A DNA stretch of 49,162 bases from Gemmatimonadota bacterium. Lineage in GTDB: Bacteria > Gemmatimonadota > Gemmatimonadetes > Longimicrobiales > Gaopeijiaceae. Of the stretch, positions 24,860 to 29,044 are shown piece by piece. The stretch is taken from positions 1-49,162 of the forward strand of contig VXQO01000050.1 of the NCBI GenBank assembly GCA_009838975.1, read 5' to 3'. How positions within the stretch are numbered: position 1 is the stretch's first letter; every line of letters begins with the position of its first letter. The notes under the pieces are model-generated. The model was not told the origin of the DNA and ran no database searches. It saw only the letters and a program-made list of their open reading frames with translations. Both the position numbers and the translations under genes were made by a program.

Positions 24860-26593
24860 TCAGTTCGGCTCGGTGGCTGCCTCCGCTCTCGCCAGCAACA
24901 GCGCCGACCCCTCCGCCATTTCGCGGTAGTACCGGACGAAGCGCCTCGTCTCCATCGCGTCGTAGTCGGCCAGGTTCTCCGCCCAGCGGTAGCCGATCGG
25001 CTGGAACCAGAGTTCGGCTTCGACGGTGAAGGGAGCGTCCGCCGCGTCCACGGGCACCGTGTAGTGCACGCGGTCGGAGCCGGCGACGAAGTCCGGGTCT
25101 TCCGCGGCGATGCCGACCACCTGCACGCGGGCGTCGGCGCGCGCGGGATCGAAGCCGTCGGGGAGGATGCGGTTGTCCTTCACCCAGCGGTGCGCCGACA
25201 TGAGTCCGGTGGTGACGGTGCCGTCGCCGTCGACCATGACGCCCTGGTAGACCTGCACCTCGTCCGGTGACGTGATGACCGTGTGATGCGGTTCGTAGCC
25301 GGCGCCGTCGGTGTCGTGGTGGTCGCCCACGACGCGGCCGTCGGCCGAGAGCGCGCCCGATTCGAACACCCGGTCTCCCCATCTGTCCGTGACCGCGAAG
25401 CGCAGCCAGGCGCGCCGCGACGGATACGCGGTCGGGAACTTGTGGCCGGCCTGGTTGCGCACGGTCACGGTGGCCTCGAGGCGTCCTCCGCCCAGGCCCA
25501 CGCCGCCGAGTTCGACGGTGGCGGTGGCGGTGCGAAGGTGGTCGGCGGTGCGCTGGGCCGCGAGTTCCATCTCCTGGGGCAGCGCGGTGACGCCGAGCTC
25601 CTCCCGGTAGCGGTTGAGTATGCGCAGCATGAAGAAGTTGCCGCCGCGGAAGATGTGGCGGGAGACCTCGGGGCGGGCGCGGCCAAGCACGCGGGTGACC
25701 GGGACATCCTCGGCGACCTCGGGCATGTGGCAGTCCTGGCAGCTGTGCTCCCGCTCGGCGCCCTCTGCGTAGATGCTGGCCTGCCACTCCAGGTAGGGTG
25801 CCTGCTCGGGGAACGCCGGGCCGCTCCCGCCGGGTTGCACGGGGTGGGTGATCACGGTGTGGCACGACGCGCACAGCCCGGACGAAGTGACGTGTTCACC
25901 CAGCGTGGGGCGGAAGCCCGTCGCCGAATGCATGATTCCGATGCCACCCTCGTCGGGCTCGAAGGGGCCGAAGACGGGACGGCCCTCCGGAGGCGTTTCA
26001 GCTGAAACGTCGAAACGGGCCGTGAAGGTCTCCTCGCTGCCCAGGCCGTCGGGCTGGATCTGGTGGCAGAGCGAGCACGAGACCCCGTCGGCGGCGAGGT
26101 CGGCGTAGGGCCCCTCGGCACCTCCGATCGGCAGGTTGGCGAAGACCTCGCCCGGCCGTCCCTCCAGAAGCGCGGCGATGGTTGCCATGGGCATGTGGCA
26201 GCGCGCGCACTCGCCCTCGATCTCGGCGGCGGCTTCGGGGTAGTCCATGATCTCGCGCCGCACCGCCGCCTGGAAGTAGGGGTCGCGGGCGGCGTTGGCC
26301 ATCATCGAGGCGCGCCAGTCGAAGCCGATCGAGACGTCGATGCCGCCGGCGGCGACCACGCCCATGTGGCAGGCGATGCAGCGGTCGGCGGTGCGGAAGT
26401 CGTCGGCGGGGTCGGTCGTGTCAGCCGGTTGGGAGGCAACCGGCCTGGTCGCGTTCGCAAACCCTGACGTGACGTCAGGGTGGTACGGCGGGGCCGGGGG
26501 AGCGCCGGCACTGATCAGCAGGGCGCCCGCGAACAGGCAGACCGTGCAGACAACGCCCGGCCACGGAACTCGGGACATGCGCCCTTGTCGCAT
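24860..26593 (-). CDS. Exported pentahaem cytochrome c
   Basis: This is a ~577-residue periplasmic or outer-surface electron-transfer protein with five CxxCH haem-attachment motifs: CIACH, CARCH, CSLCH, CASCH and CQDCH, all in the first ~300 residues. A signal sequence (basic MRQGRMSR, then VCTVCLFAGALLISAG) leads it out. The second half (RLEATVTVRNQAGHKFPTAY, RAWLRFAVTDRWGDRVFESG) is beta-rich and haem-free. The start is uncertain among GTG 26605, ATG 26593 and ATG 26578; 26593 gives a good n-region and has GAGGGG about 11 bases upstream. It follows the cytochrome-barrel gene by 5 bp, so the two are almost certainly co-transcribed. Multihaem cytochromes of this type often serve anaerobic reductases or extracellular electron transfer; the partner here is probably the barrel fusion. 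Confidence 0.9.
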   Translation of the reverse strand: MRQGRMSRVPWPGVVCTVCLFAGALLISAGAPPAPPYHPDVTSGFANATRPVASQPADTTDPADDFRTADRCIACHMGVVAAGGIDVSIGFDWRASMMANAARDPYFQAAVRREIMDYPEAAAEIEGECARCHMPMATIAALLEGRPGEVFANLPIGGAEGPYADLAADGVSCSLCHQIQPDGLGSEETFTARFDVSAETPPEGRPVFGPFEPDEGGIGIMHSATGFRPTLGEHVTSSGLCASCHTVITHPVQPGGSGPAFPEQAPYLEWQASIYAEGAEREHSCQDCHMPEVAEDVPVTRVLGRARPEVSRHIFRGGNFFMLRILNRYREELGVTALPQEMELAAQRTADHLRTATATVELGGVGLGGGRLEATVTVRNQAGHKFPTAYPSRRAWLRFAVTDRWGDRVFESGALSADGRVVGDHHDTDGAGYEPHHTVITSPDEVQVYQGVMVDGDGTVTTGLMSAHRWVKDNRILPDGFDPARADARVQVVGIAAEDPDFVAGSDRVHYTVPVDAADAPFTVEAELWFQPIGYRWAENLADYDAMETRRFVRYYREMAEGSALLLARAEAATEPN

Positions 26594-26598
26594 CGTCG

Positions 26599-27804
26599 TC
26601 ACCACCCCTCGAAGAAGCCGCCGTCGAACCAGTCAAGGAGCAGGTACGTGACCAGCCGCACGGATCTGGCCGTCTCCCCCGCGTTTCCTGTCACCGGTAT
26701 CAGCAGGCCGAAGTTGGCCAGGACGTGCTGTCTGGTGTTGAGCGAGACCTGCGCCTGGGGCACGAGGTCGAGTGTCGTCGCCGCGCCCGACTCAAAATGG
26801 CGCTTGAGCTGTATCTCGAGCATGGGGGTCCAGGTGCGCCCCCACTGGCCCTCCGTGAAGCTCCGTCCGAGGACAACGCGCCCGAACGCCTCACTCGCGC
26901 CGTCGTAGAGCGGCACCTCGAAACCGGTGTGCGCCTGGATGAAGCCGTCGTCGGGAAGGATCTGGCCGTAGGACGCGAAGGCCTCGAGCGCATTGCCGGC
27001 GGCTCCCAGCCCGGCGCCCTCGTCGCCGGTGGAGAGGATGACTTCGCCGCCGACCGAGAAGATCCTGCCAAGGTCGAGGTCGTGATGCAGGGCGTGCTTG
27101 ACACCGACCACGACATCGCCGAGGCCGTGGCGCAGGCCGTCACCGGCTGCTTCGTCGTCGTGGCCGTCGTGGTCGTGGTCGTCGTGGCCATGGTCGTGCG
27201 CGCCGCCACTTCGCCATCCGTAGGGGATGACAATCTCCACCTGGCTGCGCGGACCGAACCGCTGCTCGTATACGTACGCTGCCGAGGCGCCACCGTCGCT
27301 CTCCAGGTCCACACCCAACTCCACCACCCATTCGTCCTCGGGATACGCCTTCTCGGTCAGCAGGGGCCGGGGCAGGTTGAGTTCGCCGCGCGGCCAGTTG
27401 TCGTCGGTGCAGAGGGTGCGGATGTAACCCATCACGCGGCCCAGCTGCTCCTCGGTGAGGGCGCCCCGGAACGCCGGCATCATCTCGCTGAAGCCGCGGA
27501 CGGGTCCGCCCTCGTGCGCCACCGCAATCCAGTCGCCATCGGGCTCACGGGCGGCGAAGTCGCAGTCGGTGAAGTCGGGGACCTCCTCCTCGAAGGCGAG
27601 CAGGGAGGGCGGCAGGCCGGTGCCGTCGAGGCCGTGGCAGTTGGCGCAGGAAGCGGCGTAGATGGCGTCGCCGGGGGCGTTGGCGAGCTCTTCGCCGTTG
27701 GCCGCGAGCGGGAGTTGGGCGGTGGCGGGACTGGTGACGGCGAGGGCGAACGTCGTGACGGCCGCGGTGGCCACGAGGGCGAGGCGCGGCCGGGTCGGGC
27801 GCAC
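26599..27804 (-). CDS. Monohaem cytochrome c fused to an outer-membrane beta-barrel-like domain
   Basis: This is a 401-residue exported protein. A signal peptide (RPRLALVATAAVTTFALAV, cleavage near SPATAQ) is followed by a class I cytochrome c domain with CANCH (residues 53-57) and a probable Met ligand in SEMMPAF. From about residue 145 the pattern changes to alternating beta strands (EDEWVVELGVDLESDGG, SQVEIVIPYGW, FIQAHTGFEVPLYD, MLEIQLKRHF) ending in aromatic residues (GFFEGW), as expected for an outer-membrane barrel. A His/Asp-rich loop (AHDHGHDDHDHDGHDDE) may bind metal. The start is taken as GTG 27804, which places the signal peptide at the N-terminus and lies 2 bases after the stop of a 20-codon ORF. 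The longer frame adds ~46 implausible residues. Confidence 0.82.
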   Translation of the reverse strand: MRPTRPRLALVATAAVTTFALAVTSPATAQLPLAANGEELANAPGDAIYAASCANCHGLDGTGLPPSLLAFEEEVPDFTDCDFAAREPDGDWIAVAHEGGPVRGFSEMMPAFRGALTEEQLGRVMGYIRTLCTDDNWPRGELNLPRPLLTEKAYPEDEWVVELGVDLESDGGASAAYVYEQRFGPRSQVEIVIPYGWRSGGAHDHGHDDHDHDGHDDEAAGDGLRHGLGDVVVGVKHALHHDLDLGRIFSVGGEVILSTGDEGAGLGAAGNALEAFASYGQILPDDGFIQAHTGFEVPLYDGASEAFGRVVLGRSFTEGQWGRTWTPMLEIQLKRHFESGAATTLDLVPQAQVSLNTRQHVLANFGLLIPVTGNAGETARSVRLVTYLLLDWFDGGFFEGW

Positions 27805-28008: not shown

Positions 28009-28470
28009 TCAGACAACGGCCAGCTCCGTCGTGATCTCGATGCACTTGTGCAGCGTCCGGTAGACGGGACACCGCATGGGGTGCAGGTCGAAGGCCCGCT
28101 GGACAGCCGCCGGGTCCGCGCCAGCCGCCTGCAGCAGGTACTTCACATGTATGTGGCGAATGACCAGGACACCCTCCTCCTTGCCGACCTTTCCCTGCAC
28201 GTCCGCCGTGAGCTTCCCGCCCGACGCATCGATCCCGCGTGCCTCCAGCACGCCTCCGAAGGTACCGACGAGTCAGCCGCCGGTAGCGGCGATCACGTAG
28301 TCCAGGGTAGTCGTGGTCTCGGTGACGATCCCGCTGACCCCGTAGTGTTCCGCGATCGCCCCGTGGACGCCGAATTCGACGGGGCCTTCATGGGCCGGGA
28401 GGTGGGCGAGCCGGTGCGGCCCGCGGGTGCGCTCGATGCGCACGCTTGCTTCGTAGACAGTGTCGCTCAT
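28009..28470 (-). CDS. OsmC-like peroxide reductase, probable selenoprotein (in-frame TGA at residue 66)
   Basis: This is a 153-codon OsmC/Ohr-family protein if the single TGA at 28273-28275 is read through. The family reduces organic peroxides with a peroxidatic Cys and a resolving Cys. Residues 1-65 (MSDTVYEASV... DYVIAATGG) are the N-terminal half. TGA follows exactly at the conserved peroxidatic position (GG-C in relatives). The same frame continues with LVGTFGGVLEARGID, IRHIHVKYLL and MRCPVYRTLHKCIEI to residue 153. Cys134 sits 68 residues after the TGA, matching the resolving Cys spacing. Frame, length and motifs are otherwise intact, which argues against a decayed gene. A SECIS-like hairpin follows the TGA. 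OsmC-like selenoproteins have been reported in bacterial selenoproteome surveys (from memory). The alternative is a nonsense mutation or sequencing error. Confidence 0.82.
28237..28275 (-). promoter_or_regulatory. Candidate bacterial SECIS element with the UGA codon
   Basis: In the mRNA, the UGA (28275-28273) is followed by 19 bases and then a perfect 6-bp stem, GCGUGC (28253-28248) with GCACGC (28242-28237), closed by the 5-base loop UGGAG. Known bacterial SECIS hairpins lie directly after the UGA, with the apical loop roughly 16-37 bases away and a G among the first two loop bases. Here the loop begins 25 bases after the UGA and G is its second base. The stem also codes for protein (GVLEAR), as bacterial SECIS elements must. 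Confidence 0.68.
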
Positions 28471-28486: not shown

Positions 28487-29044
28487 CTATGAGGGCCAGA
28501 GCCAGCCGAAGATGCCGGCGGTGAGAAGTGCGTAGACGAGTCCGTCGAGGCTGTGCTTGAAAGCGACCCTGGCGGGAAGGCCGAACCAGATGGCTTCCTG
28601 GTAGCCGATGAAGCCGTAGGCCATGAAGGCAGCGGTTCCGGTAACCTGGAAGACCGACAGGTAGGCGGCGCCGGGCTCCAGCGCGACCGATGCCAGGTAG
28701 GCCACGAACACGCTGACCACCAGGTACAGTGAGACCGACTTGAGCATCGCGGGGCCCATGTTCAGCACCGCCTCGGGATCCCGCACGCGCAGGATGCCCA
28801 CCGGTCCGGTCCGGGCCATCTCCCGGTATTCGGGCGAGTTCTCCCCGCCCGCGGCCCACGGGAAATAGTACATCCCGGGTCCTGGGGTGCTGCCGCGCAC
28901 CGCGTCCATGAGTGCATCCTGGTCCGACGCGGGAGAGAAGTCGTTCTTGTGGTGCGGCATCACCATCCAGACCGCCGCGCTCACGATGAAGATCACCACG
29001 CCGGAGAGAAGGATGGGGAGCCAGAGGGCGGCGACGGCGGCCAT
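28487..29044 (-). CDS. Conserved-looking four-helix membrane protein, function unknown
   Basis: This is a 185-residue integral membrane protein I cannot assign. It has an N-terminal helix (WLPILLSGVVIFIVSAAVWMV) followed by a His-containing turn MPHHKNDFSP. A soluble loop follows (residues ~35-95, with MYYFPWAAGGENSPEYREM). Three more helices close it: SVSLYLVVSVFVAYLASVAL, VFQVTGTAAFMAYGFIGY and GLVYALLTAGIFGWLW. The MPHHK turn next to a membrane helix could bind metal, but this is not proven. It lies 16 bp upstream of the OsmC-like gene on the same strand and probably shares its transcript. The 187-bp gap before it separates it from the divergent LolA-like gene and contains a GGCCC-GACTT-GGGCC inverted repeat. 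Confidence 0.78.
   Translation of the reverse strand: MAAVAALWLPILLSGVVIFIVSAAVWMVMPHHKNDFSPASDQDALMDAVRGSTPGPGMYYFPWAAGGENSPEYREMARTGPVGILRVRDPEAVLNMGPAMLKSVSLYLVVSVFVAYLASVALEPGAAYLSVFQVTGTAAFMAYGFIGYQEAIWFGLPARVAFKHSLDGLVYALLTAGIFGWLWPS

Follow-up and report, generated by a model that had tools for sequence, protein, structure and literature searches.

OsmC-like selenoproteins are not new as a kind and have been known since 2005, when they were reported from the Sargasso Sea. They were later described in the GOS survey, their published motif is UxxT, and the surveys list homologues that carry Cys (PMC1088965, PMC2398784); reviews include them as well (PMC9312934, PMC13188914). Geodermatophilaceae encode selenocysteine (Sec) by UAG in FDH, the UGSC protein and AhpC, and no OsmC-like member is named in the text of that paper on UAG-encoded selenoproteins (PMC5330540).

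We analysed a stretch of 49,162 nucleotides from a Gemmatimonadota bacterium (contig VXQO01000050.1; hereafter the window), in which an earlier note, made from the sequence alone, had proposed an OsmC-like gene with UGA-encoded selenocysteine at the catalytic Cys. The coordinates, the length of 153 amino acids and the single uninterrupted frame were as the note had given them; the strand, which it had left unstated, is the minus strand (Table 1). The coding sequence runs from the ATG at 28470-28468 to the terminal TGA at 28011-28009 and is open throughout except for TGA 28275-28273 at residue 66. The protein reads MSDTVYEASV...TLDYVIAATGG-U-LVGTFGGVLEARG...HPMRCPVYRTLHKCIEITTELAVV, where the motif at the predicted Sec66 is U-L-V-G-T (ULxGT, UxxxT) and Cys134 lies 68 residues after Sec66.

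Table 1. Features of the OsmC-like locus in the window.
Feature	Position	Strand	Remark
OsmC-like gene, predicted selenoprotein	28009..28470	minus	153 aa and terminal TGA
In-frame UGA, predicted Sec66	28273..28275	minus	peroxidatic Cys column of OsmC/Ohr
Asp57 codon, candidate active-site carboxylate	28300..28302	minus	invariant in alignment of relatives
Cys134 codon, predicted resolving Cys	28069..28071	minus	invariant in 40 aligned relatives
SECIS-like hairpin (putative)	28237..28253	minus	20-36 nt after UGA, within coding sequence
185-aa protein, predicted membrane protein (by eye)	28487..29044	minus	possible operon partner, not core

The window protein is a member of the OsmC superfamily by profile cut-off and by fold. 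It matched Pfam OsmC (PF02566) with 52.6 bits (cut-off 27.5), and an AlphaFold2 model built from 40 sequences (the window protein and relatives) had a mean pLDDT of 92.9. All top structural matches of the model were of the OsmC type, namely 2onf (Z 15.1), 1ml8 (Z 14.1) and E. coli OsmC (1nye, Z 13.3). A phmmer search of the single window protein against the PDB gave no match; a profile search did find solved proteins. When the profile was aligned with these, the peroxidatic Cys of 2opl, 2onf, 1ml8 and 1ukk shared a column with residue 66, which places the TGA at the catalytic position as proposed. The earlier note had also named Cys134 as the resolving Cys, and in 2onf, 1ml8 and 1ukk this residue has the second of the two Cys as its counterpart.

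By analogy with the catalytic scheme of Ohr/OsmC (PMC5962072), Sec66 would attack a peroxide, probably an organic one, and be converted to a selenenic acid. Cys134 would then resolve the selenenic acid by forming a selenenylsulfide with Sec66, which in turn would be reduced by a cellular dithiol, either a lipoylated protein or another. Given its fold and its pair of redox positions, we think it likely that the window protein is a peroxidase. A selenoprotein of this fold might instead use Sec66 and Cys134 for thiol-disulfide exchange, for the handling of sulfur or selenium compounds or for some other redox or binding task. Consistent with such a role, solved OsmC/Ohr proteins share little sequence with the window protein (about 6-22% identity in the structural matches), and it scores far under the cut-offs of the NCBIfam OsmC and Ohr subfamily models. 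For the catalytic Arg of Ohr, too, the window protein offers only a candidate counterpart, Arg20, which is invariant among the aligned relatives. However, the fold and both redox columns are as in OsmC/Ohr peroxidases, and we regard a function other than peroxidase as possible but rather doubtful.

The reading of residue 66 as Sec presupposes a Sec system in the host, as the earlier note had implied. We found selA, selB, selD and tRNA-Sec in the same genome, so that none of the genes whose absence would speak against Sec (selA, selB and selC) is missing. The selA gene lies in two pieces at two contig ends and is one gene broken by assembly, because these contig ends share sequence. The selB match reached 300.9 bits. 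The selD match reached 378 bits and has its own in-frame TGA (GAGUACK, in SHGAGUACKLG; L011, contig C111); selD is commonly itself a Sec protein among Sec-using bacteria. The tRNA-Sec gene, which starts at a contig edge, has the anticodon UCA (TCA in DNA).

We then compared the residue-66 column across relatives, taking one genome per species and fetching 80 genes from Gemmatimonadota, Acidobacteriota, Actinomycetota and Calditrichota. The column held TGA in 75/80 and TAG in 5/80 of these independent assemblies (76 and 5 with the window gene counted in) and a sense codon in none, so the alignment with homologues that the earlier note had suggested returned not a single Cys codon among the 80. 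Wider searches listed about 190 further matches, and each of those spanning the column carries one TGA or TAG. A profile search matched 115 of 395 Gemmatimonadota genomes; exactly one TGA was present in every listed match (about 150 genes), many genomes having two paralogues. Among 376 genomes of Acidobacteriota there were 31 matches, of which 30 had one TGA; the remaining match covers residues 88-152 only, near a contig end, and does not span the column. A plasmid location was not found for any relative.

In Gemmatimonadota, tRNA-Sec was detected in 109/115 carriers of the gene and in 181/280 other genomes (Fisher 2e-11, a value that overstates the evidence as related genomes are not independent); all six carriers in which it was not detected are draft genomes. 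The five TAG genes all come from Modestobacter and Blastococcus (Geodermatophilaceae). All five TAG genomes encode tRNA-Sec(CUA), and all 13 TGA genomes checked encode tRNA-Sec(UCA). In a sample of 76 Geodermatophilaceae genomes, 11 carry the OsmC gene, each with one TAG and each accompanied by tRNA-Sec. In the tree, the TAG genes cluster together with full support amid TGA genes. Stop codon and tRNA have thus changed jointly, and the site has remained one for Sec; we regard this switch of codon and anticodon as the strongest evidence for Sec.

A second line of evidence comes from the RNA following the UGA. The putative hairpin has a stem of 6 bp, with 28253-28248 paired with 28242-28237 and the loop UGGAG at 28247-28243. 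In the alignment the stem corresponds to positions 23-28 paired with 34-39 (the U of UGA being 1), and most sequences have UGGAG as the loop. Across 39 distinct segments from outside the Geodermatophilaceae, 5.92 of the 6 pairs were kept, compared with 3.27±0.19 for a synonymous-codon null at the same GC3 (highest of 1000: 3.85) and with no more than 4.23 in slid registers. A T-A pair of the window clade is C-G elsewhere, and a paralogue in the same genome (L024, described below) has A-T where others have G-C. The same stem register is not kept in the five UAG genes, the folding energy of the whole segment is weakly below the null, and an Rfam search gave no SECIS match. The kept pairs are good evidence that an RNA element after the UGA is conserved, with a putative role as SECIS.

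The Sec machinery, the TGA or TAG in every relative, the agreement of codon and anticodon and the SECIS-like hairpin strongly support the UGA-encoded selenocysteine that the earlier note had proposed. Our computational results make it very likely that Sec is inserted at residue 66 and has a redox role there. The UGA would be read by tRNA-Sec(UCA) with SelA, SelB and SelD, and insertion would be directed by the hairpin shortly 3' of the UGA, inside the coding sequence. A changed genetic code could in principle give Trp or Gly at this codon, or restart at a downstream GTG could yield two separate proteins, and a GTG-started ORF of 80 amino acids does lie downstream of the TGA. However, the OsmC-like gene itself terminates at TGA, and restart would sever the OsmC domain within the catalytic helix (model residues 55-77). 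Neither predicts tRNA-Sec(CUA) in the TAG relatives, and both are at odds with a full Sec system including a selD of the Sec type; we consider them very improbable. A pseudogene with a chance stop, or a sequencing error at a true Cys codon, has nothing in its favour beyond the stop itself and is refuted by TGA or TAG at the same column in 80 independent relatives and by purifying selection, rather than decay, downstream of the stop (dN/dS well under 1: 0.08-0.27 between the window gene and its three nearest relatives, median 0.25 among nine other relatives). In our judgement, with TGA/TAG conserved and the tRNA-Sec matching it, neither a pseudogene nor any residue besides Sec is a practical possibility.

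The genes around the OsmC-like gene were less widely conserved. The gene of the 185-aa protein, also on the minus strand, lies 17 bases upstream; it directly precedes the OsmC gene in 17 Gemmatimonadota loci, and its product had no Pfam match and no significant NCBIfam match. Genes of c-type cytochromes lie downstream of the OsmC gene in about 10 Gemmatimonadota relatives, so that the link to c-type cytochromes drawn in the earlier note holds as gene neighbourhood among close relatives. It did not extend to Acidobacteriota or Actinomycetota, where homologues of neither the 185-aa protein nor the cytochromes were found beside the OsmC gene, and for this reason we do not count these neighbours in the core function. 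In the window, a multihaem c-type cytochrome gene (24860-26605, minus strand) scored 20.4 bits to NF040886 (multiheme cytochrome (seleno)protein ExtKL), below the cut-off of 250.

Further OsmC-like genes with in-frame stops were seen in the course of the searches. The genome of the window has a second one (L024:1354-1821, contig C107), with TGA at the same column (AAAGULLGTLNG) and 34% identity to the window protein; both paralogues occur in many Gemmatimonadota genomes. Other Gemmatimonadota genomes carry a third OsmC type with in-frame TGA and the motif GLGAUTSMTIALYARR (L147-L155, e.g. L152:1003-1380), which in one genome (G300) adjoins a gene of the window subfamily (1487-1942, same contig). 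A single in-frame TAG was seen in an OsmC-family match of one Gemmatimonadota genome (G362:C252:31496-31846). Some OsmC genes of relatives appeared to contain two TGAs, but only one of these is internal and the other is the normal terminal TGA, read through; there is no double-Sec OsmC among them. One sampled Geodermatophilaceae genome has two tRNA-Sec genes (L170; G801:C11:15836-15927), the better one with UCA, as opposed to CUA in most of the family; this could reflect a dual system or contamination.

Compared with the Ohr/OsmC thiol peroxidases (E. coli OsmC 1nye, Xylella fastidiosa Ohr 1zb9/4xx2, YhfA 1ml8), the window protein has the same fold and the same peroxidatic and resolving positions, but the known enzymes carry Cys at the site of its predicted Sec. 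Ohr has a Glu (Glu51) at -10 from the redox residue, and its counterpart here may be Asp57, at -9 from Sec. With the OsmC-like selenoproteins of the Sargasso Sea and GOS data, it shares the OsmC superfamily and a UGA, predicted here to encode Sec, at the redox Cys position; a bacterial SECIS lies downstream in those, and a putative one in the window gene. It differs from them, as far as their published description allows comparison, by UxxxT in place of UxxT, and Cys homologues are listed for them whereas none was found for the window subfamily. NCBIfam NF041052 (OsmC_like_Se) is likewise an OsmC-related, curated (seleno)protein model. The window protein reaches 12.9 bits with it, where the cut-off is 95 bits; only one of 395 Gemmatimonadota genomes has a gene passing that cut-off, and this gene is without TGA. 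From the motif description, the NF041052 score, the failure to find a Cys member and the use of UAG in some orthologues, we provisionally set the window protein and its relatives apart as a separate subfamily.

Cys homologues exist for most selenoprotein families. In contrast, our search in three groups found no Cys form among relatives of the window subfamily, though more distant members with Cys are possible, and this points to selenium-dependent chemistry. We are inclined, with some reserve, to see a distinct, Sec-only OsmC subfamily that existing selenoprotein models do not cover, with members in Gemmatimonadota, Acidobacteriota, Actinomycetota and Calditrichota and with Sec kept despite the switch from UGA to UAG. 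If so, it suggests a reaction for which Cys is insufficient. Such genes are probably under-reported, since standard annotation would end them at residue 65. The TAG orthologues share both their bacterial family and tRNA-Sec(CUA) with the UAG-encoded selenoproteins of Geodermatophilaceae (PMC5330540). Together with their UGA counterparts and the matching tRNA-Sec, they amount to a natural experiment on Sec decoding, and because the UAG carriers include named strains such as Blastococcus saxobsidens DSM 44509, it can be approached without the uncultured host.
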